Below, in pieces: positions 5,048-34,759 of a DNA stretch of 35,286 nucleotides. Position numbers and translations under genes: made by a program. Position 1 is the stretch's first letter; every line of letters starts with the position of its first letter. Below the pieces are notes generated by a model, which was not told the DNA's origin, ran no database searches, and worked only from the letters and a program-made list of their open reading frames with translations. This stretch comes from a virus: positions 1,010 through 36,295 of the IMG/VR virus record IMGVR_UViG_3300030328_002082, one strand, 5' to 3'.

Positions 5048-7471
5048 ATGGCAGAGTCTGTTATAAATAGTTATTTTCCAAGCCAAGTCGTAAGTGATTT
5101 GGAAAAGTTGAGTTATGATTACGGTTTAAGAATAGCTAAAGCTATAGAAACTGAATGGTTCAATCAAGATAGAGGTGTTAATAGGTATCATACTAATAAA
5201 AATAATTTTCATAATCTTAGATTGTACGCTAGAGGTGAACAATCAATACAAAAATATAAAGATGAATTGTCTATAAACGGTGATTTATCTTATCTTAATT
5301 TAGACTGGAAACCAGTACCTATTATACCTAAGTTTGTAGATATAGTTGTAAATGGTATTGCAGAGAGAACTTGGGATGTTAAAGCCTTTTCTCAAGATCC
5401 ATTTGGCGTAGAAAAACGTACAAAATACATGGAGTCTATATTATTAGACATGGAAACTAAAAATATAAACGACTATGTAGCTAGTGAGATTGGATTAAAT
5501 CTTTATCAAAATGATCCAGAAACACTACCTGATAGTAAAGAAGAGCTAGAGCTTCACATGCAACTTACCTATAAACAAGCTGTAGAGATTGCTGAGGAAC
5601 AAGCAATAAACGTTTTAATGGAAGGTAATAAATATGAGTTGATTAAAAAACAATTTTATTATGATCTTACAGTTTTAGGTATTGGTGCTGTAAAAACTTC
5701 ATTTAATACATCTGAAGGTGTTGTTATAGATTATGTTGACCCAGCAAACTTAGTTTATTCTTATAGTGAATCACCATATTTTGACGATATATATTATGTA
5801 GGTGAAGTAAAAAGCGTTTCAATAAATGAATTAGCTAAGCAGTTTCCGTATTTAAAGAATGATGAATTAGAAGATATTGTAAAAAACAAAGCTCATCATG
5901 CTAAAAATTATCATGGTGGACTAACTAACTCTAGAGAAATAGACAATAATACTGTTCAAGTTTTATATTTTAATTATAAAACTTATATGAATGAAGTTTA
6001 TAAAACAAAAGAAACGGGTAGTGGTGCTGAGAAAATAATAGAAAAAGATGACACTTTTAATCCTCCAAAAGATAAGGAAGGTGGTTATGCAAAACTAGAA
6101 AGATCTATAGAATGTCTTTATGATGGTGCTTTAATATTAGGTACAAATAAATTACTTAAGTGGGAAATGGCAAAAAACATGATGCGTCCTAAAAGTGATT
6201 TTACTAAAGTCAAAATGAACTACGCGATTTGTGCACCTAGAATGTACAAAGGAAAAATTGAATCTTTAGTAAGACGTGTTACTGGTTTTGCTGATATGAT
6301 ACAATTAACACATTTAAAACTACAACAAGTATTATCAAGAATGGTTCCAGATGGAGTTTATTTAGATGCTGATGGTCTTGCTGAAATAGATTTAGGTAAT
6401 GGTACTAATTACAATCCACAAGAAGCGCTAAACATGTTCTTCCAAACAGGATCTGTAATAGGTAGATCATTTACTTCTGAAGGTGACATGAATCCTGGTA
6501 AAGTACCAATACAAGAAATACAATCAGGATCTGGCGGTAACAAAATGCAAAGTTTAATTCAAACTTACAACTATTATCTACAAATGATAAGAGATACAAC
6601 CGGATTAAATGAGGCTAGAGATGCGACTACACCTGATAAAAATGCTTTAGTTGGTGTTCAAAAATTAGCAGCTGCAAATAGTAATACAGCAACAAGACAT
6701 ATATTACAAGGTGGATTGTTCTTAACTACTGAGGTTGCAGAATGTCTTTCGCTTAGAATATCTGATATTATTGAGTATTCTCCAACAGCTGATGCTTTTG
6801 TACAAGCTATAGGTGCTCACAATGTTGGTGTATTAGAAGAGTTAAAAGAATTACATCTATATGATTTTGGAATATTTATAGAACTAGCACCGGATGATGA
6901 GGAAAAAGCTATGCTTGAAAACAATATACAAATGGCTCTTCAACAACAATTAATAGAGTTAGCAGATGCTATTGATCTTAGAAATATTAAAAACGTTAAA
7001 CTAGCTAATCAATTACTTAAGATACGTAGAGAAAAGAAATTAGCTAAAGATCAAGCTAATCAAGAAAGAAATATTCAAATGCAGTCTCAAGCTAATATTC
7101 AAGCTCAACAAGCGGCGGCGCAAATGGAAATGCAAAAAAATCAAGCTAATATAGAGATTGAAATGCAGTTAGAGCAAATGAAAGCTCAACTTGATGCGCA
7201 AAAACAAGCGCAAGAAGTTAACTACAAAAAAGAGTTAATGGAGCTCGAGTTTAATTTTAACATGCAATTAAAGCAAGCTGAAGTTACAGCTGTACAAGGA
7301 AAAGAAAAAGAAAAAGAAGATCGTAAAGATAAAAGAACTAAAATCCAAGCAACTCAACAAAGTGAAATGATTGAACAAAGAAATAGTGGAAAACCACCTA
7401 AAAACTTTGAGTCAGCAGGTAATGATACTTTAGGGGGAGGTTTTGATTTAGGATCTTTTGACCCAAGGTAA
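5048..7471 (+). CDS. Portal protein
   Basis: The 807-residue protein forms the dodecameric ring at one capsid vertex through which terminase drives DNA. The N-terminal part has the pattern NNFHNLRLYARGEQS and PKFVDIVVNGIAER (about 52-107), typical of portal clip/wing regions in podovirus-type portals. The central region includes YYDLTVLGIGAVKTSF and VDPANLVYSYSESPYFDD. Further on are the helical hallmark RRVTGFADMIQLTHLK and RDTTGLNEARDATTPDKNAL, a stretch seen in P22/T7-type and crAss-like portals. From about residue 617 to 775 the chain becomes a Gln/Ala/Lys-rich coiled coil, probably a barrel-like C-terminal extension into the head, followed by a Gly-rich tail. Its position between terminase and scaffold candidate supports the call. 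Confidence 0.9.
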   Translation: MAESVINSYFPSQVVSDLEKLSYDYGLRIAKAIETEWFNQDRGVNRYHTNKNNFHNLRLYARGEQSIQKYKDELSINGDLSYLNLDWKPVPIIPKFVDIVVNGIAERTWDVKAFSQDPFGVEKRTKYMESILLDMETKNINDYVASEIGLNLYQNDPETLPDSKEELELHMQLTYKQAVEIAEEQAINVLMEGNKYELIKKQFYYDLTVLGIGAVKTSFNTSEGVVIDYVDPANLVYSYSESPYFDDIYYVGEVKSVSINELAKQFPYLKNDELEDIVKNKAHHAKNYHGGLTNSREIDNNTVQVLYFNYKTYMNEVYKTKETGSGAEKIIEKDDTFNPPKDKEGGYAKLERSIECLYDGALILGTNKLLKWEMAKNMMRPKSDFTKVKMNYAICAPRMYKGKIESLVRRVTGFADMIQLTHLKLQQVLSRMVPDGVYLDADGLAEIDLGNGTNYNPQEALNMFFQTGSVIGRSFTSEGDMNPGKVPIQEIQSGSGGNKMQSLIQTYNYYLQMIRDTTGLNEARDATTPDKNALVGVQKLAAANSNTATRHILQGGLFLTTEVAECLSLRISDIIEYSPTADAFVQAIGAHNVGVLEELKELHLYDFGIFIELAPDDEEKAMLENNIQMALQQQLIELADAIDLRNIKNVKLANQLLKIRREKKLAKDQANQERNIQMQSQANIQAQQAAAQMEMQKNQANIEIEMQLEQMKAQLDAQKQAQEVNYKKELMELEFNFNMQLKQAEVTAVQGKEKEKEDRKDKRTKIQATQQSEMIEQRNSGKPPKNFESAGNDTLGGGFDLGSFDPR

Positions 7472-8681: not shown

Positions 8682-10163
8682 ATGGCAATTACAGCAGGAA
8701 GTAATTTGAATAGTGTTTTAGCTCCACAAAAGCAAACATTAGCATCAAATTATATCGATTTTACAGCCCAAGGAACAGCAGGATGGGCGCAACAATATTT
8801 ACCAGATCTTATGGAGAAAGAAGCTGAAGTTTTCGGACCGAGAACTATTTCAGGATTTCTTTCACAAGTAGGAGCTGAAGAGGCTATGACGTCTGACCAA
8901 GTAGTTTGGTCTGAACAAGGTAGACTACACTTATCATACATTGGTACGGTAAACACTGGAACTTCAGTTGTTACAATCGTTACTGATATTGATGGGAATG
9001 CATTAACTAGTACTCACGGTATAAGACTTAACGACCAAGTATTAGTAGCAACAGCAGAAGGAACAGCAAAATGTATCGTTACAGCTCACTCAGGTGCTAC
9101 TGTAACTTGTGTGCCTTATGAGCAAGAAAATTTAGATGATTTATCTGCTTTTTCTACAGAGTCAGCGGCTGCATGTACAGTATTAGTTTATGGTTCTGAA
9201 TTTAACAAAGGTGTTGAAGGACAAGGAAATTACGGTGGTATTTCTGCTTCTGGACCTAAAACTGTTAAACCAAGTTTCAAAAGCTTTACTAACAAACCAA
9301 TTATTATGAAGGATTACTATGAGATCTCAGGATCTGATGCTTCACAAATCGGTTGGGTTGAAGTTACTGGTGAAGAAGGACAAAGTGGTTACCTATGGTA
9401 TTTAAAAGCTGAAGGTGATACTAGAGCTCGTTTCACTGATTACTTAGAGATGACTATGTTAGAAGCAGAAAAAATCGTTTCTACATCTGTAGCTGTTGAT
9501 ACTATATTCGCAGGTGCTGCTGGTCTTGGAACTAACGCTGGTACTGAAGGTTTATTCGCAGCTATCGAAGATAGAGGTAACGTTACTACTGGTATTACTG
9601 GTGTTAACGCTGCTACTGATTTAGCTGAGTTTGATCTAATATTAGCTGAGTTTGATAAGCAAGGTGCTATTGAAGAAAACATGATGTTTGTTAACAGATC
9701 TACTAGCTTAGCTATGGATGACATGTTAGCTTCTATGAATTCTTACGGAGCTGGTGGTACTTCTTACGGAGTATTCAACAACTCTGAGAATATGGCATTA
9801 AATTTAGGTTTCTCTGGTTTCAGAAGAGGTTCTTATGACTTCTACAAGTCTGACATGAGATACTTAAATGACAAAGCTACAAGAGGTGGTATTAACGATA
9901 GAGATGCAGTAGCTCCGATTAGAGGGGTACTTATCCCAGCGGGTGTATCTTCTGTTTATGACCAACAACTAGGTAAAAACCTAAAGAGACCATTCTTACA
10001 CGTTCGTTACAGAGCTTCACAAACTGACGATAGAAGAATGAAAACTTGGGTAACTGGTTCAGTTGGTGCAGCTACATCTGATTTAGATGCAATGCAAATA
10101 AACTACTTATCTGAAAGATGTTTAATTACTCAAGGTGCTAACAATTTCATGTTAATGAAATAA
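8682..10163 (+). CDS. Major capsid protein (HK97-like)
   Basis: A 493-residue protein placed right after the scaffold candidate and just before a strong terminator, the usual position of the capsid gene. The N-terminal segment includes FTAQGTAGWAQQYLPDLMEK (27-46). A beta-rich insertion follows at about 88-172, where Ile/Val/Thr/Ala strands alternate (LNDQVLVATAEG, CIVTAHSGATVTCVPY). The core has NKPIIMKDYYEISGSDA and TRARFTDYLEMTMLEAEKIV (long spine-helix candidate at 247-266), and ends with beta strands (PFLHVRYRAS, MKTWVTGS). Codons ending in C (TTC, AAC, GAC) are visibly more frequent than in neighbours, fitting very high expression. No separate maturation protease is recognised nearby. 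The fold is inferred from context and pattern. Confidence 0.88.
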   Translation: MAITAGSNLNSVLAPQKQTLASNYIDFTAQGTAGWAQQYLPDLMEKEAEVFGPRTISGFLSQVGAEEAMTSDQVVWSEQGRLHLSYIGTVNTGTSVVTIVTDIDGNALTSTHGIRLNDQVLVATAEGTAKCIVTAHSGATVTCVPYEQENLDDLSAFSTESAAACTVLVYGSEFNKGVEGQGNYGGISASGPKTVKPSFKSFTNKPIIMKDYYEISGSDASQIGWVEVTGEEGQSGYLWYLKAEGDTRARFTDYLEMTMLEAEKIVSTSVAVDTIFAGAAGLGTNAGTEGLFAAIEDRGNVTTGITGVNAATDLAEFDLILAEFDKQGAIEENMMFVNRSTSLAMDDMLASMNSYGAGGTSYGVFNNSENMALNLGFSGFRRGSYDFYKSDMRYLNDKATRGGINDRDAVAPIRGVLIPAGVSSVYDQQLGKNLKRPFLHVRYRASQTDDRRMKTWVTGSVGAATSDLDAMQINYLSERCLITQGANNFMLMK

Positions 10164-13271: not shown

Positions 13272-16200
13272 ATGCCTGAAATCAAAAACACTTTCATGGC
13301 GGGGAAGATGAATAAAGACGCTGACGAAAGATTAGTGCCTAAAGGTGAATATAGAAACGCTATGAACATACAAGTCTCAACTTCAGAAGGATCTGATGTT
13401 GGTGCTGTTGAGAACTTACTTGGTAACATGCCATTGACGGACTTGTATATTGTTCCTTTTGATTCTAGATGTGTTGGTGCTATTGCTGATGAAAAAAATG
13501 ATTGTTTTTACTGGTTTGTTCAGCATAAAGATAAAGATTTAATACTAAAGTACCACAATGGAAACGTAATTCCTATTGTGGTAGATTTGTTTCCAAGCGA
13601 TCCTAAAAAAAGAATATTAGCTTTTCCTAAGAGAACTACAAACAACCTTATTACTGGAATAAATATAATAGATGATTTACTTTTTTGGACTGATGGTTCT
13701 AGTGAGCCTAAGAAGATAAATGTAAAGCTATGTCAACAAGGTACTGACGTTACAGGTTCTTATCACACAAAGCTAGTTGCCCCAAAAGCTAATATAACAA
13801 TCTCTAATAATATTTTGTTAAGAGAAGATCATATAACTGTTATAAAAAAATATCCATTAACACCGTTAACTTTAGAACCTAAATACACTAAAGTAATTAC
13901 TTCTGAAATAAGAAGTCAAAATCCATTTGCAGACCCTAATAATCCTGGGGATTTATTACCTGTTGGCGATATTGTTATTGCTGATTTTGATAATTTTGAA
14001 AATGGATCTGGGTATAGTGTAAATGATGAGATTTTACTATTAAACAGTAATGGTCAATTACCTACAAACTTTGATGTTAGAGTAAAAGTGGTTGAAGATA
14101 TTAGCGGTGGTGGTGGAACTAATCCTGGTAACCCAAGTGGTTATTCAAATGTTTATAAAATTCAAATATTATCTATAAACCCTAATACAACAACAGGAAA
14201 TCCAGGAGGTCTTATGTTTAAAGCTGAAAACGTTAACAAAGAAGAGTTAATGTTTGAGAAAAAATTTCCTAGATTTAGTTATAGATGGAGGTATCAAGAT
14301 GGAGAATACTCTTCTTTTGCGCCTTTTACTTCTGTTGTTTTTGAACCAGGAAAATTTTTATACGACACAAAGTCTGCGTTTAATAAAGGAATGGACAGAT
14401 ATTTAGTTGGTTTAAATTTAAGAAATTTTTTACCAGTAAACACTCCCCAAGATGTTGTACAAGTAGATATTTTATATAAAGATTCTCGTAGCCCAACTGT
14501 TTATATTGTTGATACGATAAAACCAAACGATAGAGAATCCATATCTATAGGAAATGCTGAAGAAAGTTATCTTGCTGAAAACTTTAACAATCCAGGTTTT
14601 AACATGTTTGGAAACCATTTGTTAAATTGTTGGGATGCAAATTCATTTGAACTAGAGTCAGATGTTATTTTTTCTACAACTCCAGAAAATCAACTGTCAA
14701 GACCTTGGGACCACGTTCCACGATTTGCCAAAGCTCAAGAGTTAAGTGCTAATAGACTTATATATGGTAATTATACTCAAAACTTTGATATTTTAGAAAA
14801 ACCTACTCTAGTATCTAAATACATAACTAGATACCCAGATAATATTAGATATAAACCTTTATTTCTAAACAATTATACAGATAGTTATATATTGCAAGAA
14901 GAAGACATAAGCCCAAGTTCAGATTTATATCTTTATGGTCAAAAATCGTTAAAGTCTATGAGAGAGTATCAAGTTGGAGTTACTTTTTTAGACAAGTATG
15001 GACGAGAAACACCTGTTTTTAGTGATGCAAAAGCTAGTTTTCAAGTAAAAAAGAAGCACGGTAAGTTTAAAACATCAATTGAAACTAGATTAACAAACGA
15101 TCCGCCTTATTGGGCAGAATACATGAAGTTCTATGTAAAAGAAACTGCAACTGAATATTATAATTTAGTTATGGATAGAATCTATGACGCTAAAGATGGT
15201 CATTTTTGGTTGTCATTTCCTTCGTCTGATATAAATAAGGTTCGAGAAGATAGTTATTTAATATTGAAGAAAGGCGAAAGCACTAACAGTATGATTATTG
15301 AAGAAGCTAAGTATAAGGTTATTGACATTAATAAGTCTGCTCCTGATTACATAAAGACAAAGGTAATAAGTGTTGGTTCTTCTGCTGGTAGTGAAACACC
15401 TACGTTAACACAGGGATCGCCAATAGTTATTAATCAAAGATATTTTGAGATTGATGAAGATACATGGGTTGGTAGTGGAAATGCAAAACTTAGTGAAATT
15501 ACAGAAAAATTAACTCTTGATTTTTCTACTACAACTCAAACTTCAAAAATATATGATATTGTTGCTGTAGATATTTTAGAAAATGGAGGAATAGACGGTG
15601 GTAGATCTTATAAAATTACTTTAGATAGAATAGTTGATACTGAAGACAAATGGATATATCCAAATTATCCAACAATTATTTCAGGTAGTTTACCAGATTT
15701 AGATTCATCAGTACAAATTAATATTTATAAAAATATAAAAGAAAATAGACCTGAATTTGATGGGAAATTTTTTGTTAAAATCTACGGAGACAGTGTTGTT
15801 AATCAACATTTACTATTAAATAGTGGTAGTGTTCAATATCAAGTTGACGCTAGAATAGACCCTTATTTATTCTTAGACAGCGACGCAACTTCCACGATTG
15901 TTGGGAGTAGTGGATATACTACCACTGGTTTTAACAAATCAGATACAATGAGTAGATGGAAACGTAATCTTGATGTTAGTGATCCATCTGACAATGTAAT
16001 GGATAGAGTTTGGTTTTTAGACAATGCTTACTATAAAGGATCGTTACCACTTAACTTTGGACCAAATGATGAGTTGAGCGATGAAGATACGTCTAGTGCT
16101 TATGGACAAGGGTTTCACCAAATAAATGGTAAGTGGTATATGGATATTTCTTACGGACAAATACATCAAGATGTTCACTATTCGCAGTACACATCTATTG

Positions 16201-18962
16201 GAGTTCACCATACTATTGAAACAAATGTGCCTTGGGATGGTGAAGGAGATGAAAAAGAACTACCTTCAAATTTAATAAAAGGATTAAAAGAAGCAGATAA
16301 ACTATGGGGCGTTGGTACTCCAGGTAATTCTTTTGACGCAGTACAAGCTGATGTTGTTTCAAAGCTAGTTAAAGGAACTAAATTTAGATTTGCTGGAGAT
16401 ACTAGTGGTGAGATATTTGAAATTGATGATGATCCAATAATTAAAAGATTATTTAACCATACTATGTGGTATCATGTTCAATCAGAGTTTGACGCTTGGG
16501 AAGATGAAGATTTTGATTTAGGTGATAACTGGAATGGCGATGAGTATGTACAATATAGAACTAGATTAGGAGCTTATGGAAACGCAAGTAATAGAAGATT
16601 AAGATATAAAATACCAATAGATAAAGATCCAAACTTAGCAACTATTAAACCTTACACAAACACTAACACCACCACTTTTACAGTGGCAGATAACAATACA
16701 CCATTTGGAATTGAATTTATTCAAGAAAAATACGTTAGAGGCGAAGCGTCAGTAAGTATGAATCCTGCTATTTGGGAGACAGAGCCAAAAGAAAGTGAAG
16801 GTTTAGATATTTATCACGAAGCTTCTCAAGCTTATCCTGTTAAAATAACTCCAGAAAATTCAGAGTTATATATACCAATAAATTCTATTGTTACTAGACC
16901 TGGTGGTGAAGATGCTATGCAAACCGGTGTTACAACTAGAGTTACTCAAGTAGAAGGTTTTAATGGAACTTCAGAAATATCATTGCGATTTAACGAAGAA
17001 ATAAGTCTTGCAATGGCAAATGTTAATATAAATGTACCTTTTAGATTTACAAAGGTAGATGGAAGTTTTGTTACGCTATATTTAGCTGATTTACCAACTG
17101 GACCTTTACCTCATTTCCCAGGAGTTCCACCATTTACATATGAATTTAAAACAGATATTGCAAAAAATCCTATAGGTCTAGATTGGTTTAATTGTTTTTC
17201 TTTTGGTAACGGTGTAGAGTCAAATAGAATACGAGATGATTTTAACCAGGTAACTTTAGATAAAGGACCTGTTGTATCTTCAACAATAGACAGTAACTAT
17301 GAAACGGAACATCGAACTAGTGGTTTAATATTCTCAGGAATATATAATTCAACAACTGGTGTTAATAATTTAAATCAATTTCTTATTACTGAAGGTATAA
17401 CAAAAGATTTAAATCCTTTTTACGGTAGTATACAAAAACTCTTTAGTAGAAATAATGATTTATTGGCTTTTTGTGAAGACAAAGTTTTAAGAATACTAGC
17501 AAACAAAGATGCCATGTTTAACGCTGATGGTAATCCTCAACTTTTATCTACAAATAGAGTTTTAGGACAAGCTATGCCTTTTGCCGGTGAATTTGGTATA
17601 TCTAAAAATCCAGAAAGTTTTGCTTCTGATGCTTTTAGAGTTTATTTTACAGACAAAACTAGATCAGCTGTATTAAGATTATCAATGGATGGTGTGACAG
17701 TAATATCTGATTACGGAATGTCTGATTGGTTTAGTGATAATTTAAAAAACAACAATCATTTAATAGGTAGTTTTGATAATGATAAAAACGAATACAACTT
17801 AACACTTGTTAATAGCGCTACAACAGTTTCTTTTGATGACGAAGTAAACGGTTGGTGTAGTTTTAAATCTTTTGTTACTGACTTTGGCGCTTTAAGTTTA
17901 GGTTCTGATTATTACACTTTTAACGAAGGACTAGGTTATAAACACCATGTAGAGCTTGATAAGCAAGGTAATCAAAATCCAAGAAATACTTTTTATGGAG
18001 TTTACACACCTTCTTCTGTTAGTGTTGTTTTAAATGACGAAGCAGGTGTAATTAAATCATTTAAGACGTTGGGTTATGAAGGCTCGCAGTCATATATAAA
18101 TCAAGAAACAACAGACGTAAGAACTGGTTTTTATAATTTAATACAAAAAGATGGTTGGAGCGTAGAGCATATCTCTACAGATAAACAAAAAGGCAATGTA
18201 TCTGAGTTTATAGAAAAAGAAGGTAAATGGTTTAACTATATAAAAGGAATTGATGTAGCAGAAAGCTTAGATATTAAAACTGATGAGTTTTCTTTTCAAG
18301 GAATAGGAAAAATATTAAACATGAGTGTAGATACTTCTCGTTATCATATAGAACCACCTGTAATTGTAAATGGTTGTATGGATCCAAATGCTAGTAACTA
18401 CAATCCTAACGCAACTCAAGATGATGGTAGTTGTGTTTATGTTCAACAAATACCTGGATGTACTGATCCAAACGCAAACAACTATAATCCACTAGCTACT
18501 TATGATGACGGAAGTTGTGTAATAGATATACCAGGATGTATGGATCCAAATGCTTCAAATTACAATCCTCTTGCTACAGTTGATGATGGTAGTTGTTTTT
18601 TAACTCCAATATATGGCTGTACTAATCCTAACGCAACAAATTATGATTCGACCGCAACAGTTGATGATGGTTCATGTATTTTACCGGTTCCTGGTTGTAC
18701 GGATCCTACTGCTGACAATTACAATCCTTTAGCTACATATGATGATGGTAGTTGTATATGGGCACCTCCTCCAGGTGGTCCTGGTGGTGGTACGGGCGGT
18801 GGAAATCCACAAGCAATTCCAGGTTGTATGGACCCTGCCGCTAATAATTACGATCCATTGGCAACTATAGATGATGGTTCGTGCACGTATACGCCAAACT
18901 CTTTAACAATACAAGATTCAAACGATCCAGATACTAGTTCACCTCCACCACCAAATTATTAA
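13272..18962 (+). CDS. P22 gp10-like tail stabilization protein with DDGSC repeats
   Basis: A 1896-residue protein. The N-terminus (MPEIKNTFMAGKMNKDADER, then LVPKGEYRNAMNIQVSTSEG) is the signature I associate with phage stabilization/tail accessory proteins related to P22 gp10, also found in crAss-like phages. A central beta-rich body runs to about residue 1680. Within it, at about 1390-1500, is a conserved-looking block (KLFSRNNDLLAFCEDKVLRI, DGVTVISDYGMSDWF). Residues 1701-1871 hold six copies of GCxDPxAxNYxxxATxDDGSC, with a Pro/Gly linker between copies 5 and 6, and the chain ends Pro-rich. The family usually has 470 residues in P22, so this is a heavily expanded form. It probably plugs the tail hub and presents the repeats outward. 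The gp10 call is moderate and the repeats are certain. Confidence 0.72.
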   Translation: MPEIKNTFMAGKMNKDADERLVPKGEYRNAMNIQVSTSEGSDVGAVENLLGNMPLTDLYIVPFDSRCVGAIADEKNDCFYWFVQHKDKDLILKYHNGNVIPIVVDLFPSDPKKRILAFPKRTTNNLITGINIIDDLLFWTDGSSEPKKINVKLCQQGTDVTGSYHTKLVAPKANITISNNILLREDHITVIKKYPLTPLTLEPKYTKVITSEIRSQNPFADPNNPGDLLPVGDIVIADFDNFENGSGYSVNDEILLLNSNGQLPTNFDVRVKVVEDISGGGGTNPGNPSGYSNVYKIQILSINPNTTTGNPGGLMFKAENVNKEELMFEKKFPRFSYRWRYQDGEYSSFAPFTSVVFEPGKFLYDTKSAFNKGMDRYLVGLNLRNFLPVNTPQDVVQVDILYKDSRSPTVYIVDTIKPNDRESISIGNAEESYLAENFNNPGFNMFGNHLLNCWDANSFELESDVIFSTTPENQLSRPWDHVPRFAKAQELSANRLIYGNYTQNFDILEKPTLVSKYITRYPDNIRYKPLFLNNYTDSYILQEEDISPSSDLYLYGQKSLKSMREYQVGVTFLDKYGRETPVFSDAKASFQVKKKHGKFKTSIETRLTNDPPYWAEYMKFYVKETATEYYNLVMDRIYDAKDGHFWLSFPSSDINKVREDSYLILKKGESTNSMIIEEAKYKVIDINKSAPDYIKTKVISVGSSAGSETPTLTQGSPIVINQRYFEIDEDTWVGSGNAKLSEITEKLTLDFSTTTQTSKIYDIVAVDILENGGIDGGRSYKITLDRIVDTEDKWIYPNYPTIISGSLPDLDSSVQINIYKNIKENRPEFDGKFFVKIYGDSVVNQHLLLNSGSVQYQVDARIDPYLFLDSDATSTIVGSSGYTTTGFNKSDTMSRWKRNLDVSDPSDNVMDRVWFLDNAYYKGSLPLNFGPNDELSDEDTSSAYGQGFHQINGKWYMDISYGQIHQDVHYSQYTSIGVHHTIETNVPWDGEGDEKELPSNLIKGLKEADKLWGVGTPGNSFDAVQADVVSKLVKGTKFRFAGDTSGEIFEIDDDPIIKRLFNHTMWYHVQSEFDAWEDEDFDLGDNWNGDEYVQYRTRLGAYGNASNRRLRYKIPIDKDPNLATIKPYTNTNTTTFTVADNNTPFGIEFIQEKYVRGEASVSMNPAIWETEPKESEGLDIYHEASQAYPVKITPENSELYIPINSIVTRPGGEDAMQTGVTTRVTQVEGFNGTSEISLRFNEEISLAMANVNINVPFRFTKVDGSFVTLYLADLPTGPLPHFPGVPPFTYEFKTDIAKNPIGLDWFNCFSFGNGVESNRIRDDFNQVTLDKGPVVSSTIDSNYETEHRTSGLIFSGIYNSTTGVNNLNQFLITEGITKDLNPFYGSIQKLFSRNNDLLAFCEDKVLRILANKDAMFNADGNPQLLSTNRVLGQAMPFAGEFGISKNPESFASDAFRVYFTDKTRSAVLRLSMDGVTVISDYGMSDWFSDNLKNNNHLIGSFDNDKNEYNLTLVNSATTVSFDDEVNGWCSFKSFVTDFGALSLGSDYYTFNEGLGYKHHVELDKQGNQNPRNTFYGVYTPSSVSVVLNDEAGVIKSFKTLGYEGSQSYINQETTDVRTGFYNLIQKDGWSVEHISTDKQKGNVSEFIEKEGKWFNYIKGIDVAESLDIKTDEFSFQGIGKILNMSVDTSRYHIEPPVIVNGCMDPNASNYNPNATQDDGSCVYVQQIPGCTDPNANNYNPLATYDDGSCVIDIPGCMDPNASNYNPLATVDDGSCFLTPIYGCTNPNATNYDSTATVDDGSCILPVPGCTDPTADNYNPLATYDDGSCIWAPPPGGPGGGTGGGNPQAIPGCMDPAANNYDPLATIDDGSCTYTPNSLTIQDSNDPDTSSPPPPNY
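18372..18884 (+). repeat. Six DDGSC repeats in the tail protein
   Basis: Six in-frame repeats of about 26-28 residues start at residue 1701. Each has Gly-Cys, then (T/M)(D/N)PxAxNY, then xATxDDGSC (first copy GCMDPNASNYNPNATQDDGS plus C). The two Cys of each copy could form a disulfide, and the Asp/Asn-rich loop resembles a calcium site. The spacer before the last copy is enlarged with PPPGGPGGGTGGG. DNA copies have diverged at third positions while the protein pattern is kept, suggesting selection rather than recent slippage. Confidence 0.9.
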
Positions 18963-25402: not shown

Positions 25403-28400
25403 ATGTCAAAATACAAATACAAAGGTACAGATTTTACTGAGGAAGATGTTATGAAAGCAGCTGGCAATGCCAACTTGTCTTTTGACGATTATGTAAATAA
25501 ACATAAGTTAGAGTTCGTTGAAGATGAAGTTGCTCCTGATGCTGCGTTAGAAAATGTGCGTGAGAAAAAAGTTCCAGAATTTAAAAGTTCACACATATCA
25601 CTAGAAGATCTTACTGTGGATCATGGAAATGGAATGTGGGGTGGATTTTTTAATGTTGAAAAAAATGTTTTAAAAAGCTTAACAGATCATTATAAGGGTA
25701 GTGGTGTTAGTATGAAGGGCGTTACTGGTGGTATTGATGAAATAGAAATAAAAAATAAAGCAGGAGATACAGAAAGATTTGCAATACCTTCTACTTTTAA
25801 TAAGTTCACGTGGCAAATTGGTGGTACTGATGAAATGTATGATTTTCATAAAAAAATAACTGACTTTATAGCCGCAGGTAATAAAAATATAGATCCAGAA
25901 TTAGAAAAACAACAAAGAAATATTGAGGCTGAAATTCTTGAAACACTTGACAATACTCAAGCTATGAGGAATTTTATTCCAGATTTTACTGGCAATTGGG
26001 AGGCTATTGAGAGTGACGATGATGAAGAGAAAAAGACTCTAATGGCTAGTCTTCAAAAACAATTTGGAGAAGGTACTGACGCCTGGTATGGTGAAAATAT
26101 AAATTTTGTGTTTGATGGTGATTATTCAAAGTTATCAGAAACAGATTATCAATTTGCACTTGACAAGATTATATCGTTAAAAGCATCAGAACAAAGGATT
26201 AAAAAAGCAGAAGCAAAACGATTATTAGAAGAAACATATCTTCCTTCGGAAGATTTTAAAGCAGAGTTGCACGCTAATAGAGATCAAGAGATTATTAGTA
26301 AGATGGCGCCTGAAGAAAAGAAGTTAGTAGGACTGTTTAAGCAATATGAAGATTTAATTGGGGTGGAAGGTGTAGAGGCTAGAGAAAAAAGAGAAAGTCT
26401 TGAAAAGCAAATGAAAGTTGCAAGAAAAAACCTAGGTAATATTTTCGATCAAAGAAGATATACAAACCAAGCATTTGTTTTAGATTTAAATGGTAACTAT
26501 ATAGATCCCCTTAGACAAGGTTCTCTTCCACAGGTTACTATTACTGAAGAAGAATACGAGGCTAATAAATCACTTCTTGAGCAAAAGACACAAGGGCGTA
26601 GAGATGTTATAAGAGATCTAAGCAACACTAATCACGAGAAAATGTATGTTAGTGATAAAGAGGGTGAAAAGGTTGATAAGGTTGTTATAAACGATAAATC
26701 TGTATTTAAAAGTTTAATAAGAGATCACAATATAAAACCTATTGGTAAAACAGAAAAAGGATATATATTTGAACTCCCAAGAAGTTTGTCAGCAAATCAC
26801 TATAATTATATAGTAAAAGGAGATGGATTTGACATGTGGAAAGATGGCTTGAGTGGTGTTGGTGAGAAGGCCGTTACTGGTGGTAAAGCACGATTCATAT
26901 TCCCAAAAGAATTAACAGGAGATGAAAGTTATCCAGATTTCCAAAGTCCAGATGGTCATTTTGGTTTATTAGAGTTTGACAAAGATCAAACATTTAGTGG
27001 TAAAGAAGTTAGTCTTGGTATAAATCCTTTAATCCCTGGTTTTGTTGGTGGTTGGTGGGATCAAGATGAATATGCAGATAATGATTTGTCTAAAGAATAT
27101 AAAAGAGAATTAAAAGCCTGGAGAGACGAAAGAAAAGCTTTAGTTAACGACAGAAAAGTGCTTAACGATATGCATCTTTTAAACATTGACCCAGGATCAA
27201 ACACTCTAAGTATCTCTATTGATCTTGACGAGGGAACTGCGGGTGAAAGCGATTTTAGTCTTGACTTCATACCACAAGGAGTAGGTTTATTATACGAAGG
27301 TTTTGGCCATACTTTAGGTTTTGATTCTGACGCACAAGATGATTTAAACTTGTGGAGCGCTAGGGCTTCTAACGATGCTTTAGATTCTTTTGCATATAGT
27401 AGTGGTTTTGAATTAAATGCTGAGCAAAAAGAAAGAGTTAAAAGAACTGGTGCTTATAAAGTTTTTGAAGGTGTTGTAGGGTTTGTGCCTGCCATTATAG
27501 AGTTTGCAGCTATTGAATATGCCACCGCAGGTTTTGGTACTGCCACTGGTCTTACTAGACTTGGGACTAGGTTAACTACTTCTTACAAAATGGGTGATAA
27601 AGGTAGGAAGATTTCAACCGCCCAAATGGCTAATAAAATAGGTTACAAAGGTAAACTAAGCGATACTAAAGCTCTTGATGAGGCAATTATGAGATGGAAC
27701 TTGACTAGCAAGTCAAAAGTAAGTCCATATTTTCCAGGTGTAAAAGGTGCGGCCCCAGGAATAGTAAAAGGAGCTGGGAGAACTACAACGCAATCCGCTA
27801 TGTTTCACGGTTTTCACATACTAAAAGAAGAAGCTAAAATGGCGATTGCTTTTGAAGATGATTATAAAATAGGTATGGGTGCTGGTTTTTATATAGCTGG
27901 AGCTTCGTTACCTAGGTTTTCATTTGGAAGAGAATCAGCGTTTGGTCAAAGATCTGTAGCTACTTTAAACGCAGGGCTTACGATGGGAAGAAGTGGTCTT
28001 GCGGGAGCAACAGGTACTGTAGCCGCTGCAAATCTAGAAGCTTTTATTGAAGATATAAGAGGTAGAACTACTTACGGTAAATATTTATCAGAAACCTATG
28101 ATGATTTAAGCGAAACAGGACAACAGGGCTTGATTGATTTCTTTACGTTTATGCTTGTTGGTAGAGGTAAAGGTCTTACTAGACAAGATTTTAAAAGTAT
28201 TAAAAAGTTAGATAGACTTGAAAGAGAATCTGGTGTATTATTAAAGATTTTAGAAACACAAAAAAGAAACAACACGGGTACTTACAAATCAAACAGAGAT
28301 CTTTGGAATAGAAAATATGAAAAATACAAAGATTTAAACAAGCATGTGCAGATAACTTTAAATAGAATAGATAACAATTCTAAGTGGGCTGATACGTCAA

Positions 28401-31400
28401 CTAGAAGAAAAATAGTTGAACGATCTTCTAGGAATTCTGAAAACGTTATTAGGCAAATACCGGGAATGGAAAATTTTAAAATTAAAATAAAAGATAATAA
28501 TAGAGATTTCCAAAATAAAGATGCAGTTGCCGAGTTTAATAGTAAAAACGAAGTGTTTTTAGATCTTAGCAGAATAGATAAGGGAAGTTTACCACACGAG
28601 ATGGGACACGTAGTTTTTAAAGCTTTATTTAGAAATAACCCTGAGGTAACAAAAATGTTTGTTAGAGAATTAAAAAGTTCTTTTAAAGATGCTGAGTTTC
28701 CAAGTGAGGTTAAAAAACTTGTAGATGGAAAACTTGTTGGCACTGGTGTAATGAAAAAAATGACTCTTGAAGAGTATATTAAAAATGAATATCAAGAAAA
28801 GAAGTTTGAAAATATAAAACCAGAAGAGTTTATTACTTATACAATAGAGTTGTTAGCACAAGGAAAACATTATACTAAACTTGTTGACAGTGGCGCTTTT
28901 ACAAATTTAAAACAAAGGATAAATAGATTTAGTAACGAAAGAAACGGAAAAGATATATTTTCAACTAGCGATAGTAAACAACAATTAATTAACTTTTTAG
29001 CAAATTTTGGTAAGTCTATACAAAAAGGTAGTTTAACACTAGAACAAGTAGGTATGTTCAAGCAGTTTGCGACAAAAATTGGAAACAAAAAAGTTGACAT
29101 TACTGAGCTGTATAAAGAGCCAATAGAAAAAGACAGTAGAACTGAATCAGAAAAAACTACAGCTGATGCTGCTAAAAAGTCTACAAAAATATTAAGAGAT
29201 AAAATAGAAAATATTTACGTGTCTAACATTGCTGGTAAAACCGGAGATGAAAAAAGAAAAGCTATTGAAGACTTTTTAATGGGTAAAAATGCTAAAAAAG
29301 GTACGCCAGCATATGAGTTCGAAATAAGAAGCAGAAACCCTAAAGCTAACGATGCTAAAATAAAAGAGTTAATAGAAAAAGGACCTGGAAGAATAAAAAC
29401 AGAAGCACACTTTGACGCTATAATTATGGATGCTTTAAATAAAAAATATCCAGATTTAACGTTTGCACAAAAGAAAAGCTTATTCTATGAGTTAAAACAC
29501 GATCCGTATTTAGCTAACAAACAAGCTAAAAAAAGAGGTGTAGTTGAAGCTATAATGGATTACAAAGAAGGTAAAAGCAAAGATTTAGCTTCTTGGGTTA
29601 TGGCTAACTTACTGGGGTCTCCTGAAGCTGGTGGTTTTTCTCGTATGCATGAAATTATAAAGGGCGAAAGAAGAGAGGGTAGAGTTGGGAATATTGAAAT
29701 CCCAGGTATGTTTAGAAAAAGTATAACAGAAGAAAAAGGTGTTGGAGTTAGTGAAAAAGAGCTTGGAACAGTTACACAGCAACAACAACGTTCAGCTGAA
29801 AAAGTTTATACTGGTAAAAAAATAAAAATTGCAGAAGATCTTAAACTTAAAGACGCAGAAGTTGAAGCCGGTAAAAGAGTTATAGGAGAATATATGGAGC
29901 AAGCTCCATTAAAAGATTTTACATATAAAAAAATTGGAGAAGCAGTTATGCCAATTCTTAGACCTATTGTTGAAAGAGCATTTAAACGTGATGCTGAATT
30001 TTATAAAAGATTTAATGAAAAAGGATTGAGAGATCCTTATGTTCAAGAAGTTATAAAGGCGAATAGAAGAGATTTATTTGACCATGCTAAAACTTTCTTT
30101 CACTCTATACCAGAGCAAATGTCTAAAATGACGGCTGAAGTTACTGGAGCTATGGGGACATTTGGTGCTTTGTACACTCCAACGGGTAAAAGACTGCAGT
30201 GGTCAGAAATGCCAGTCTGGATGGAGTTGTCAAAAAGTAAAAAAGCTTCAGGCCCACCAATATTTGAAAAAAGAAAAGTTTTTAATGAAACAGAACTTAA
30301 AAAGGCACTTTTAGATTTTATGTATACTAACCCTAAAACTGGCAAGCCGTTAAGAACAGAACAGGTTAATAAAAGAATTGAAAGAGGACTTGATTTTATG
30401 ACAAACTCAATGGGTATACAGTTTGCAAAAGACTTAATAGATACTCCTGGTTTTAGAGAAATGATATTAGCTAAAGAAGGTGCTGGTAAAATGATAAGTA
30501 GAGAAAAGTTAATGGAACTTGACAAGCAAAAGGTTCATGACAAAGTTAAAGAACAATTAAGAGATGCCCTACCACAAGCTTTAGCTACTAAAAAAATACT
30601 TGGAAGTAAAGACCTTGCTGCATATGAAAGGTATGCTGATTATTTTGCTAGTAAAAATTTAGATTGGACATGGGAAAACATTAGAAAAGCTCACGCGGAG
30701 AATTATTCATTTCAAAGTTTAGATGTAAAGCTTTTTTATGAGACTGTTCTTAAACCTTTTGGATTAGGTAAAGGAGAATTAAACTTTGACGCTATGTTAC
30801 CTGTGGAGCTTATAGTAGATCCCAAGAAAATAAGTAAAAAACCAGTTAGGCAAATTGCTGAGTGGGCAGAACTACCTGCAATGTTGAAAAAACTAGGTCT
30901 AAGTGAATTTGATGTAAACGCTATAATTACTTCAACTGCTAAACAAATGGCAAACAAAGATTTTATAGATGACTATTACAAAAGCAAAGAGGGTATACTA
31001 AGAGTTGTTGCAAGCAAACTTCCACAATCAATTGTTGAAAGCGCTGCGTTTAGGTATCAGTTTGGGCAAGGTGTAGACGGTATAGCGCCTCGTGTTGGTG
31101 ATCTTCAAAGACAATCTTGGAGCAAGAAAAAAGGTAAAATGGTAAATAGAGGTTTAAATAAAGCTGCTTTTAATAAATTAATGAAAGATGGTAATATTAA
31201 AGGTATACCTGATGCTAAATATTTAAAAAGTTTACCTACAAAAACCGCGGCTCAGAGACAACAAAAAGCCGAAATAGCTAAAGCTTTAAAAAGCTTTAAA
31301 ATTACAGATAACAAAGATTTAAAAGCAGAGTTAGTTAAAGAGTTAAATAAAAAAGAATATAGCGATATATTAACAAACACTAATAAACAGCTAAAACTTA

Positions 31401-34400
31401 AAGAACATTTAAGAAAATTTTTAGGTTTAGACAAGGGTGCTGAGATTGCTAATCAAAAAGTTTTAGAGCTTTTCAATTTTGCTGTTAAAGACTTTTATCT
31501 AGGCGCTAAAAATAAAACAACGGCTTTAAACCAAGTTGTATTTCACTTGCAATCTCAAACAAATATAGGTAGAGGTTTTTCAAGAGGAGCAGCTACACAT
31601 ATGGATGTTAGCATGGAAGCTCAAGCGTTAGGTAAACTTCTTAGAAGTGAACATGGTCTTCAGTTGATTAACTTTAATACAAACTTTTTAGTGGATGTTT
31701 TAGTAAATGGGAAAAATCCAAAAACATTTGAAAAAAATTATAAAGAATACGCTAATATATACAGGCAAGGTGTTATAACGGAAAAAGTAAGAGAAAGTGT
31801 TGATTACGTTTATATTGATGGAAAAAGAGTAGTTGCAAATACAAGTATACCAGAAGGCTATACTTTTAGCCACCCAGCGTCTGCTACTTATATAAAAACA
31901 ATGGATGTTGCTAACAAACAGCTTTATTTAGGAGAAGGTGCTTTAACTAAAGGACAACAAATAACTCACAACTTAGCGATAGGTAATATAAAGAAAATTA
32001 CTCAACAAGCTGGCTTTGCAATACCTACAAAAGGTATTACCAAGAGTCAAATGGTTAAAAATCTACGTACTACTGATAAGGCTATGGCTTTAGGTAGAAT
32101 GAAGGATAAAAAGAAAAGAGGCATGAGCACTTTTGACTTTGATTATACTGTTGGTATTAGCGAGAACTTTGTATTTGCAACTAAAGGGAAAGAAAAAAGA
32201 AAAATATCATCAGCTGAATGGCCTTTTGTTGGTGATAAGTTATTGGCTGAGGGTTGGAAAATGGACTTTAGTGATTTTAATAAAGTTACAAAAGGAAAAC
32301 CTGGGCCTTTAATGCAAAAGCTTAAAAATCAAATAAAAAAGTTTGGATCAGACAACGTTTATATATTAACGGCTAGAGCGCCTGAAAGTCAAAAAGCAAT
32401 ACATGATTGGTTAAAAAGTGAGGGCGTTAATATTCCATTAAAAAATATCACTGGTTTAGGTAATAGCACTGGAGAGGCAAAGGCCATGTGGATGTTAGAA
32501 AAGTTTAGTGAAGGATATAACGATATGTACTTTGTAGATGACGCTCTGCCAAACGTTAAAGCCGTGAGAGAAGTGCTAGATCAATTAGATATTAAGTCTA
32601 AGGTGCAGCAAGCGTTACCAACAAAAAAGATTTTAAGTGATAACTTTAATAAGATTATAGAAGATGTGTATAGCATTGGAGCTGAAAAACAATATTCTGG
32701 TGCAAAAGCAAAGTTATTAGGTGAAAGAAAGTGGACAAAGTCTTTTATAACACCGGCAAATCAAGATTTTGCTGGATTGTTAAGAAATTTCGTGGGTAAA
32801 GGTAAAAAAGGTGAAGAGCATTTAAAGTTTTTTGACGAAAACTTACACAAGCCTTTTGCGAGAGCTTATAACAATCTCAATACAGCTAATCAAAATACAG
32901 TTGGTGATTTTAAAGCTTTAGCTAAAAACTTTCCAAAAGTTAAAAAAGATTTAAATAAAAAAATTCCTGGTTCTCCTTGGACTTACGATCACGCTGTTAG
33001 AGTTCACAGGTGGACAAGGGCTGGATTTAAAGTACCAGAGCTTTCAAAAACTGATATTGCTGAGTTAAATAAGTTTGTTGAACAAAATCCTGAATTGTTA
33101 GAGTTTTCAGAACAATTAGGTAGTTTAACAAAATTAGAAAAAGGATATGTAGAGCCAGGAAGAGATTGGGTGGCTGGATCTATAATGAGTGATTTAGCAC
33201 GTATAGTTACTAGCGTAAATAGAAAAAGAGAACTAGCGGAGTTTATGGAAAATAGAGAGGCTATTTTTGGCACTTGGAATAATGGTAAATTAGAGGGTGC
33301 TAATATAAATAAAATAGAGGCTACTCAAGGTCCTAAATTTAGAGAAGCACTAGAGGATATATTGTGGAGAATGGAAACTGGTAGTAATAGACCTACTGGT
33401 AAAAACGCAGTAGTAAATGCTCATATGGATTTTATAAACGGAGCTGTTGGAACAACAATGTTTTTAAATTCTAGATCTGCAATGTTACAAAGTTTGTCTA
33501 CTTTTAACTATATAAACTGGAGTTTTAATAATCCAGCAATGGCAGGTAAAGCTTTTGCTAATCAAGCACAATACTGGAAAGATTTTAAAATGATAATAAC
33601 CTCTGATATGTTAAGACAAAGAAGAGGTGGTTTAAGATATAACGTCCAAGAAGCTGAATTAGCTCAATCGGCTGCTCGAGGTAGAGAAAACTGGAAAAAA
33701 GGAGATGTTATTGGTATTGGTAAAAGCACAATAGCTTACTTGCTTAAAAAAGGATTTTTACCTACACAAGTAATGGATAGTTTTGCAATATCAGCTGGTG
33801 GTGCTACTTTTTATAGAAATAGAGTTAATGATTTAATTAAAAAAGGCGCTACTAAAGTTGAAGCTGAGAAACAAGCTTGGTTAGAATTTCAAGAAAAAAC
33901 AGAAGTAGCACAGCAGTCTTCTAGACCAGATTTAATTTCTCAAAACCAAGCAGCACCAACTGGTAGACTTGTTTTAGCGTGGGCAAACACGCCTATGCAA
34001 TATGGTAGAATACAAGAAAAAGCTGTTAGAGACTTTATAAATAGAAGGGGTAGTCAAGCGGAAAATGTATCAAAAATATTATATTACGGAGGTATACAAT
34101 CCGCTGTGTTTGCAGGTTTACAAAACGCATTGTTTGCATTTGCTTTAGACGAAGAAGGTGACATGGCTAAAGGAGATCCTCAAATCCCTGAAAAAGAAAG
34201 AAGGGACAAAGCATTATATCAAAGAACATGGAGAGCTGCTAACACCGTATTAGATAGTCAGTTAAGAGGTATAGGTATTCCAGGCGCGGTAGTTGGTACT
34301 TTAAAAAACATGGCGCTTGAATTCCACGCACAAGATAAAAAAGAATATAACCAAGACTATGGTAAAGTAGGTTTACAAGCCGTGAGTTATTCTCCACCAA

Positions 34401-34759
34401 TTGGAGCAAGGGTTAGAGATATTGTTGGTGTTGGAAATACTTGGAAATGGAATAAAGATGCTATAATGAGTATGAACTTTTTTGATTTAGACAACCCTGG
34501 TTTAATGGCTGCAGCTACAACAGTTCAAGCAACAACCAATCTTCCAACCGAAGCAACTCTTCAGAACGTAAACAATTTAAGAGAGGCTGCTGATTGGAGA
34601 AATCAATGGTGGCAAAGAGTGTTTTCTGCAATAGGTTTTGCTCCTTGGGATATTGGTACTGAAAACGAAAGATATGAAAGAATAAAAAAGAAAGCAAAAA
34701 AACAAAGAAAAAAGAAAAATAAAAGATCAAAAAGTACATTTAAAATGCTAGATTCCTAA
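25403..34759 (+). CDS. Giant polyvalent-type virion protein with metallopeptidase and HAD domains
   Basis: One uninterrupted 3118-residue frame, starting one base after the preceding stop. Residues 1-680 are charged and mostly unassigned. A hydrophobic stretch lies near 690-715 (GFVPAIIEFAAIEYATAGFG). HEMGH at 1065-1069, within LPHEMGHVVFKALF, plus EEFITYTIE at 1141-1149, reads as an HExxH metallopeptidase. At 2245-2249 DFDYT starts a HAD phosphatase set, with YILTAR (T2323), K2360 and YFVDDALPN (D2379, D2380). The last 700 residues are helical and Gln/Arg-rich. They include SSRPDLISQNQAAPTGRLVL and WANTPMQYGRIQEKA, a pattern I know from large polyvalent proteins of marine phages. A membrane-like helix lies near 2900-2920. 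Such proteins are thought to be packaged and injected. Catalysis is not proven, and the intact HExxH and DxDxT residues make it plausible. Confidence 0.88.
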   Translation: MSKYKYKGTDFTEEDVMKAAGNANLSFDDYVNKHKLEFVEDEVAPDAALENVREKKVPEFKSSHISLEDLTVDHGNGMWGGFFNVEKNVLKSLTDHYKGSGVSMKGVTGGIDEIEIKNKAGDTERFAIPSTFNKFTWQIGGTDEMYDFHKKITDFIAAGNKNIDPELEKQQRNIEAEILETLDNTQAMRNFIPDFTGNWEAIESDDDEEKKTLMASLQKQFGEGTDAWYGENINFVFDGDYSKLSETDYQFALDKIISLKASEQRIKKAEAKRLLEETYLPSEDFKAELHANRDQEIISKMAPEEKKLVGLFKQYEDLIGVEGVEAREKRESLEKQMKVARKNLGNIFDQRRYTNQAFVLDLNGNYIDPLRQGSLPQVTITEEEYEANKSLLEQKTQGRRDVIRDLSNTNHEKMYVSDKEGEKVDKVVINDKSVFKSLIRDHNIKPIGKTEKGYIFELPRSLSANHYNYIVKGDGFDMWKDGLSGVGEKAVTGGKARFIFPKELTGDESYPDFQSPDGHFGLLEFDKDQTFSGKEVSLGINPLIPGFVGGWWDQDEYADNDLSKEYKRELKAWRDERKALVNDRKVLNDMHLLNIDPGSNTLSISIDLDEGTAGESDFSLDFIPQGVGLLYEGFGHTLGFDSDAQDDLNLWSARASNDALDSFAYSSGFELNAEQKERVKRTGAYKVFEGVVGFVPAIIEFAAIEYATAGFGTATGLTRLGTRLTTSYKMGDKGRKISTAQMANKIGYKGKLSDTKALDEAIMRWNLTSKSKVSPYFPGVKGAAPGIVKGAGRTTTQSAMFHGFHILKEEAKMAIAFEDDYKIGMGAGFYIAGASLPRFSFGRESAFGQRSVATLNAGLTMGRSGLAGATGTVAAANLEAFIEDIRGRTTYGKYLSETYDDLSETGQQGLIDFFTFMLVGRGKGLTRQDFKSIKKLDRLERESGVLLKILETQKRNNTGTYKSNRDLWNRKYEKYKDLNKHVQITLNRIDNNSKWADTSTRRKIVERSSRNSENVIRQIPGMENFKIKIKDNNRDFQNKDAVAEFNSKNEVFLDLSRIDKGSLPHEMGHVVFKALFRNNPEVTKMFVRELKSSFKDAEFPSEVKKLVDGKLVGTGVMKKMTLEEYIKNEYQEKKFENIKPEEFITYTIELLAQGKHYTKLVDSGAFTNLKQRINRFSNERNGKDIFSTSDSKQQLINFLANFGKSIQKGSLTLEQVGMFKQFATKIGNKKVDITELYKEPIEKDSRTESEKTTADAAKKSTKILRDKIENIYVSNIAGKTGDEKRKAIEDFLMGKNAKKGTPAYEFEIRSRNPKANDAKIKELIEKGPGRIKTEAHFDAIIMDALNKKYPDLTFAQKKSLFYELKHDPYLANKQAKKRGVVEAIMDYKEGKSKDLASWVMANLLGSPEAGGFSRMHEIIKGERREGRVGNIEIPGMFRKSITEEKGVGVSEKELGTVTQQQQRSAEKVYTGKKIKIAEDLKLKDAEVEAGKRVIGEYMEQAPLKDFTYKKIGEAVMPILRPIVERAFKRDAEFYKRFNEKGLRDPYVQEVIKANRRDLFDHAKTFFHSIPEQMSKMTAEVTGAMGTFGALYTPTGKRLQWSEMPVWMELSKSKKASGPPIFEKRKVFNETELKKALLDFMYTNPKTGKPLRTEQVNKRIERGLDFMTNSMGIQFAKDLIDTPGFREMILAKEGAGKMISREKLMELDKQKVHDKVKEQLRDALPQALATKKILGSKDLAAYERYADYFASKNLDWTWENIRKAHAENYSFQSLDVKLFYETVLKPFGLGKGELNFDAMLPVELIVDPKKISKKPVRQIAEWAELPAMLKKLGLSEFDVNAIITSTAKQMANKDFIDDYYKSKEGILRVVASKLPQSIVESAAFRYQFGQGVDGIAPRVGDLQRQSWSKKKGKMVNRGLNKAAFNKLMKDGNIKGIPDAKYLKSLPTKTAAQRQQKAEIAKALKSFKITDNKDLKAELVKELNKKEYSDILTNTNKQLKLKEHLRKFLGLDKGAEIANQKVLELFNFAVKDFYLGAKNKTTALNQVVFHLQSQTNIGRGFSRGAATHMDVSMEAQALGKLLRSEHGLQLINFNTNFLVDVLVNGKNPKTFEKNYKEYANIYRQGVITEKVRESVDYVYIDGKRVVANTSIPEGYTFSHPASATYIKTMDVANKQLYLGEGALTKGQQITHNLAIGNIKKITQQAGFAIPTKGITKSQMVKNLRTTDKAMALGRMKDKKKRGMSTFDFDYTVGISENFVFATKGKEKRKISSAEWPFVGDKLLAEGWKMDFSDFNKVTKGKPGPLMQKLKNQIKKFGSDNVYILTARAPESQKAIHDWLKSEGVNIPLKNITGLGNSTGEAKAMWMLEKFSEGYNDMYFVDDALPNVKAVREVLDQLDIKSKVQQALPTKKILSDNFNKIIEDVYSIGAEKQYSGAKAKLLGERKWTKSFITPANQDFAGLLRNFVGKGKKGEEHLKFFDENLHKPFARAYNNLNTANQNTVGDFKALAKNFPKVKKDLNKKIPGSPWTYDHAVRVHRWTRAGFKVPELSKTDIAELNKFVEQNPELLEFSEQLGSLTKLEKGYVEPGRDWVAGSIMSDLARIVTSVNRKRELAEFMENREAIFGTWNNGKLEGANINKIEATQGPKFREALEDILWRMETGSNRPTGKNAVVNAHMDFINGAVGTTMFLNSRSAMLQSLSTFNYINWSFNNPAMAGKAFANQAQYWKDFKMIITSDMLRQRRGGLRYNVQEAELAQSAARGRENWKKGDVIGIGKSTIAYLLKKGFLPTQVMDSFAISAGGATFYRNRVNDLIKKGATKVEAEKQAWLEFQEKTEVAQQSSRPDLISQNQAAPTGRLVLAWANTPMQYGRIQEKAVRDFINRRGSQAENVSKILYYGGIQSAVFAGLQNALFAFALDEEGDMAKGDPQIPEKERRDKALYQRTWRAANTVLDSQLRGIGIPGAVVGTLKNMALEFHAQDKKEYNQDYGKVGLQAVSYSPPIGARVRDIVGVGNTWKWNKDAIMSMNFFDLDNPGLMAAATTVQATTNLPTEATLQNVNNLREAADWRNQWWQRVFSAIGFAPWDIGTENERYERIKKKAKKQRKKKNKRSKSTFKMLDS

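Follow-up and report, generated by a model that had tools for sequence, protein, structure and literature searches.

The sequence analysed here (the window, 35,286 nucleotides of a 37.7-kb IMG/VR record) comes from a marine phage that is uncultivated and, to judge from its genes, related to the crAss-like phages of Bacteroidota. The gene that closes its virion cluster encodes a giant protein of 3118 residues (25403..34759, plus strand, as are the features of this protein given below), and within this protein lies a HAD phosphatase domain, delimited by an AlphaFold2 model, structural matches and conservation to residues about 2240-2402 (32120..32608). The explanation that best accounts for the evidence as a whole is that an intact HAD enzyme resides in a probably ejected giant protein and serves a 3' end-healing role, a reading to which we assign a probability of about 0.5.

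The preliminary description had placed a complete HAD motif set at 32126-32635, with the residues D2245, D2247, T2249, T2323, K2360 and D2379/D2380; translation of the ORF reads STFDFDYT...YILTAR...EAKA...YFVDDALPNV over this interval and bears out every one of them. Motif I (DFDYT, 32135..32149) contains the nucleophile D2245 and the acid/base D2247 and follows the pattern DxDx[TV] as D2245-F-D2247-Y-T2249, immediately after the first core strand. Motif II (LTAR, 32366..32377) supplies T2323 and R2325, motif III the lysine K2360 (32480..32482), which is invariant in 158 aligned rows and pairs with K258 of T4 PseT, and motif IV the acidic pair D2379 and D2380 (32537..32542), all of them ordered at the ends of strands or helices. 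The claim of correct order and spacing also held, since a search for the full pattern, including the hydrophobic strands, hits the real protein once and none of 5000 shuffled versions. Position 2248 (32144-32146) is a Tyr in the window, whereas 98% of the relatives carry a Glu there (DFDET). The alternative that DFDYT marks the active site (DFDxD type) of a crAss RNA polymerase was dropped, as HAD motifs II-IV and the structural model decide the matter.

An alignment of 66 sequences served as input to the AlphaFold2 model of the domain, which has a mean pLDDT of 84. Modeling of residues about 2225-2415 had been proposed at the outset as a check, and the Rossmann-like HAD core is indeed present. 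In model numbering, motif I sits at the end of strand 11-16, motif II at the end of strand 90-94, K2360 within helix 128-140 and the DD pair after strand 145-150, while strands 27-32 and 35-40 form a β-hairpin flap (residues 2256-2269; 32168..32209). Comparison of the model with PDB structures returned 184 chains with Z ≥ 8, with HAD proteins in the top rows. The best three matches are all Pnkp phosphatases, headed by T4 polynucleotide kinase-phosphatase (5uj0, Z 12.8, rmsd 2.4 over 127 aligned residues) and followed by 4xru (Z 12.1) and 1ltq (Z 11.9); the fourth, a capsule polymerase (Z 11.4), is on a par with numbers two and three. A plain Foldseek search of the PDB was weak (best E 0.007, to the HAD effector Ceg4), and the same search of viral models (BFVD) gave strong matches. 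The nearness of the phosphatase domain to Pnkp is seen in structure, at Z 12.8, whereas the HAD profile has no significant match to the T4 Pnkp phosphatase (E 0.05, probability 1%), though the two are in register over motifs II-IV. Family scans gave modest scores, with DUF2608 and HAD-IA each reaching 3e-6 in the best member, in addition to matches to HAD-IIIC and to phrog_415 'polynucleotide kinase' (3e-4). Scans of the whole chain against Pfam and PHROGs returned nothing trustworthy. A match of the HAD profile to ResA, a thiol-disulfide oxidoreductase, among PDB sequences (E 0.045 over 40 residues) was set aside as chance, as it covers a single strand-helix unit devoid of motifs. The sequence and the model together make it almost certain that the window encodes a HAD fold with a complete active site.

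The seven catalytic residues are invariant in 81 sequences (80 relatives and the window), for which the chance is about 2e-5, given that 47 of the 215 columns are invariant. The C-terminal region led to 78 further loci, in which T2323, K2360, D2379 and D2380 are retained in all aligned rows, and motif I is intact in every row where it is alignable; it seems absent from some rows because an inserted kinase, described below, shifts it ~200 residues further upstream. Of 64 complete relatives, only 3-20% can be aligned to residues 1-2200 of the giant protein, while coverage from about 2250 to 3050 is 97-98% and identity reaches 85% near HAD motifs III-IV and about 45% over the final 650 residues, a profile that defines the HAD domain and the C-terminal region as the conserved core of the protein. 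A search with the C-terminal region alone returned at least 595 loci. Eighty loci were scanned for the HAD domain (78 from the C-terminal search, plus L088 and L089, which a search with HAD had found), and 78 have it in the same ORF; L158 ends at a contig edge and L167 lacks the domain, which leaves 78 of 79 untruncated loci with HAD. The C-terminal region of L167 (L167:562-8073) is shortly preceded by a second HExxH-type site (HELQH).

That nearly all relatives conserve the HAD domain along with the C-terminal region, and that one relative dispenses with HAD, could be taken to mean that the fold is retained as a structural module of an ejection protein and that catalysis is irrelevant. This is highly improbable, as the catalytic residues are invariant wherever aligned (158 sequences) while other core positions vary, which is enzyme-like rather than scaffold-like. 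The earlier view that all acidic residues are kept and catalysis is plausible can be put more firmly: catalysis by the HAD domain is very likely, because the predicted fold contains all catalytic residues and these are strictly conserved in hundreds of relatives.

Outside metagenomes, a sequence search of 50,697 named phages with the HAD domain and C-terminal region found no match, and no cultured phage with the HAD domain is therefore recognised. Profiles of both parts likewise found no match in the giant proteins of phi38:1, phi46:3, Gundel_1, elemo and MW202828, for which reason only a shared gene position, and not homology, is claimed for the giant proteins of named phages. A search of genome contigs with HAD yielded two loci, L088 and L089, labelled as Maricaulis and Sphingobacteriales MAGs, the Maricaulis one probably being mis-binned; both look like phage contigs binned into MAGs and hence reveal no host. 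In one Flavobacterium elemo phage a small gene of its own (gp48, L083:12771-13124) bears the annotation HAD hydrolase, but the HAD profile does not match it.

Several relatives carry a second enzyme inside the phosphatase. A search of 17 long relatives with the AAA_33 kinase family found three with a kinase within the giant gene, directly before the remaining HAD domain, in the order motif I (WDFDDTLATTKSGVRA), P-loop kinase (GGAGSGKS...) and the HAD remainder from the flap on. The nested kinase comprises ~200 residues and leaves both active sites intact; it is inserted where the flap hairpin turns, which is the usual site of C1 caps in HAD proteins. Most of 157 giant proteins scanned have some 70-90 residues between motifs I and II (about 74 being usual), but in ten the spacing is exactly 277, and a search with the kinase unit recovered at least 119 related contigs with a nested kinase. 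The loci in which the nested kinase was noted are L120, L129, L141, L094, L099, L138, L143, L147, L155, L164 and L172-L251. Eighty of the contigs from the search were kept, and 70 of the 80 have the spacing of 277, all with GxxGSGK; seven of the remaining ten carry the kinase at the same site behind a motif I of DLDxT or DADDT. In L249, which belongs to the window's own HAD subfamily (VDDALPN), the kinase-unit match is longer than in the others, and the insertion may be longer or different. An assembly error is very unlikely as the origin of the nested kinase, because it recurs in independent metagenomes with intact frames.

The nested kinase is characterized by the P-loop GxxGSGK, a conserved Asp and an RNxxRxER lid. 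It matches the phrog_505 polynucleotide kinase at 1e-10, and its profile aligns with T4 PseT at a probability of 96.5% (E 1e-9), where K15, D35, D85, R122 and R126 of the T4 enzyme pair with K42, D62, D117, R155 and R159 of the kinase unit; in this alignment T4 R38 has no equivalent. The nearest free-standing homologue is found in the Methylophilales phage Melnitz (L254:1477-2776), where it is followed by a separate gene for a nucleotidase-type HAD (DMDGV...IDDKPDN), a similar pair in the form of two genes. On the tree of HAD cores, kinase-bearing rows occupy three places kept apart by well-supported branches, a distribution that suggests either several gains or an old insertion that was lost repeatedly. 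The window falls inside a large clade lacking the kinase; no P-loop kinase was found in its own protein, as in most relatives, and since it has no 5'-kinase domain it is not classified as a Pnkp.

The preliminary description had listed nucleotides, 5' or 3' ends of nucleic acids and host phospho-signals as conceivable substrates. Among these, nucleic-acid ends are best supported by the sequence and model comparisons, because relatives nest a Pnkp-like kinase and the Pnkp phosphatase is the nearest fold; the nearest HAD fold and the kinase profile match represent the two halves of Pnkp, found independently of one another. An end-healing phosphatase acting on nucleic-acid ends thus comes close to an even chance. 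The main rival is a small-molecule substrate, with the HAD domain being an injected phosphatase of nucleotides, sugar phosphates or host alarm or defence nucleotides and the nested kinase being of zeta or nucleoside type. HAD-IA and nucleotidase profiles also match the domain weakly, the kinase exceeds the cut-off of Zeta_toxin as well as that of AAA_33, PezT is the solved protein closest to it in sequence, and the published survey of polyvalent proteins predicts that such proteins contain enzymes directed against nucleotide signals (PMC5512222). Set against this, Pnkp structures top the fold list, the kinase profile matches the Pnkp kinase across its catalytic residues, and the small hairpin cap would leave the active site open, as suits large substrates; we consider a small-molecule role less likely than end healing. 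It is very unlikely that the domain targets phosphoproteins or transfers phosphate within the virion, for example in regulating assembly or ejection: its position is fixed beside the conserved C-terminal region and 4 of 66 members match a protein phosphatase profile of the NIF/FCP1 type, but these matches are weak and rare, and the nested nucleic-acid-type kinase would be left unexplained.

For an end-healing phosphatase, the kind of end may be suggested by accompanying ligases. An ATP-dependent DNA ligase exceeds the cut-off in 11 of the 17 long relatives, the three kinase-bearing ones among them, while neither a separate RNA ligase nor RtcB was found in any of the 17, the sole RNA_ligase match being the DNA ligase itself. 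Removal of 3' phosphates at DNA ends is therefore weakly favoured, with RNA ends as second choice; the support is weak because DNA ligases are common in phages.

The virion genes of the window include a crass muzzle, a mark of Crassvirales-type virions. The large terminase subunit (2832..5045; phrog_6681, E 4e-167; 63% identity to MW202828 and 45% to elemo phages), the portal protein (5048..7471; phrog_6547, E 5e-154), a virion structural protein (8682..10163; phrog_13704, E 7e-98) and a crassvirus-type muzzle protein (13272..18962; PF25731 at E 4e-12 and PF25729 at E 2e-10, both above the cut-off), all on the plus strand, precede the giant gene, which is the last of the series. Upstream of the terminase lie a holin (398-784; phrog_3427) and a GroES-like protein (2022-2603; phrog_13932). 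The Flavobacterium elemo phages share 45% identity in the terminase and 42% in the portal, and Cellulophaga and Tenacibaculum phages are more distant. The genes at the position corresponding to that of the giant gene, gp101 of phi38:1 and gp18 of elemo, are both annotated as structural proteins.

Two further parts of the giant protein bear on its fate. The C-terminal region (residues 2415-3118; 32645..34756), which is kept in all relatives, is modeled as all helical (pLDDT 78.5); its fold matches viral proteins annotated as PolyVal ADP-ribosyltransferase, large polyvalent protein and MuF C-terminal, as well as a protein of a crAss-like virus and a structural protein of Gundel_1, all at E ≤ 1e-4 with 10-14% identity. 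Against the PDB, nothing exceeded Z 4.5 (PhiM1 ejectosome 4.5, T7 gp15-gp16 4.1), values too low for interpretation, and no Pfam LPD domain was matched in the giant protein or the relatives scanned. One relative (L018:3269-14140) has about 500 additional residues beyond the conserved C-terminal region. Further upstream lies a zincin motif, HEMGH (residues 1065-1069; 28595..28609), with a probable third ligand in E1142 (28826..28828); HExxH is found in 20 of 21 relatives in the same alignment columns and the Glu in 19 of 21 rows. The whole site (28595-28828) is retained in 19-20 of the 21 despite a mean column identity of 15%, and within residues 1-2200 it is the single recognisable site common to the relatives, individual members of which have a glucosaminidase or GH108 domain in their N-terminal part.

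Ejection of the giant protein with the DNA is likely because the gene is the last of the virion operon, the C-terminal fold matches proteins annotated as polyvalent, a zinc-peptidase site is present and the phage has a muzzle. The protein's place in the virion and its carriage into the host, which the preliminary description had assumed, are inferred from gene position, C-terminal fold and zinc-peptidase partner.

In the mechanism that we propose, the giant protein would exit the virion together with the DNA during infection and may then be cleaved into pieces by its own zinc-peptidase site. Once released, the HAD domain, with D2245 as nucleophile and Mg2+, would remove 3' phosphates from nucleic-acid ends in the manner of the phosphatase half of T4 Pnkp, while in related phages the P-loop kinase nested in the flap would supply the 5'-phosphorylating half, and ends left by breakage or by nucleases on the incoming phage DNA (or on host RNA) would become ready for ligation. 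More tentatively, marine phages may inject an end-healing enzyme within a giant ejection protein, with several lineages nesting the 5'-kinase in the flap of the 3'-phosphatase as an inside-out Pnkp, and the incoming genome or cleaved host RNA might be repaired before phage gene expression. Virion-carried enzymes act before phage genes are read and thus reveal the host defences that are met first. In hundreds of uncultivated marine phages of the crAss-like kind, the HAD domain is the most conserved piece of a giant protein that otherwise changes fast, which strongly hints that entry requires end repair or the removal of a phosphate signal, and the nested kinase offers a direct handle on the HAD substrate.

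Among known proteins, the homologues A0A218ML07, A0A218MMX7, A0A218MLT5 and A0A7S9STY3 (UniProt, modeled in BFVD) are close, with 47-59% identity in the HAD domain and 38-43% in the C-terminal region; they are uncharacterised, and one bears a kinase name. The giant protein resembles the polyvalent proteins of Iyer et al. (2017; PMC5512222), which are giant, multidomain and encoded beside virion genes, with a zincin-like site and a variable N-terminal part, and which are proposed to be co-injected with DNA and processed by zincins. It likewise combines a zincin site and a HAD domain in a chain of 3118 residues, to which individual relatives add a glucosaminidase, GH108 or kinase; it is encoded downstream of terminase, portal, structural and muzzle genes, and its helical C-terminal fold matches PolyVal-annotated proteins. 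Unlike in polyvalent proteins, the HAD domain here is a fixed part of the core rather than a variable one, and Pfam LPD is not matched; the main text of the survey, which covers 131 domains, names no HAD or Pnkp-like domain (PMC5512222). In its very large size, its place in the virion gene block and its occurrence in a phage with a crass muzzle, the protein is similar to the C1/C2 and RNA polymerase proteins of phicrAss001 (PMC10172136), although scans of Pfam and PHROGs found no RNA polymerase match in it; N4 gp50 likewise combines an HExxH subdomain with a C-terminal domain that is large and helical (PMC12633501). The HAD domain has no counterpart in the accounts of crAss-like and N4 cargo proteins given there (PMC10172136, PMC12633501), and the crassvirus atlas describes cargo proteins and muzzle with no HAD domain in those descriptions (PMC10172136). 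Work on jumbo phages has described HADs of the Pnkp and Swiss-army-knife types as free enzymes of RNA repair, and the open-access literature yielded no virion-borne or nested Pnkp. A HAD domain as a core part of probably ejected giant proteins thus appears to be undescribed, as does, as far as searched, the two-enzyme architecture of a kinase nested in a phosphatase. T4 Pnkp (PseT) is a free enzyme of 301 residues in which the kinase precedes the phosphatase, whereas the phosphatase of the window lies inside a 3118-residue protein and the kinase of its relatives is nested within the phosphatase and lacks the equivalent of R38. The two systems nevertheless have in common a HAD phosphatase with DxD, [ST]xR, Lys and DD motifs, for which the T4 enzyme provides the nearest solved fold, and, in some relatives of the window, a P-loop kinase that shares its catalytic pattern with the T4 kinase and lies in one chain with the phosphatase.
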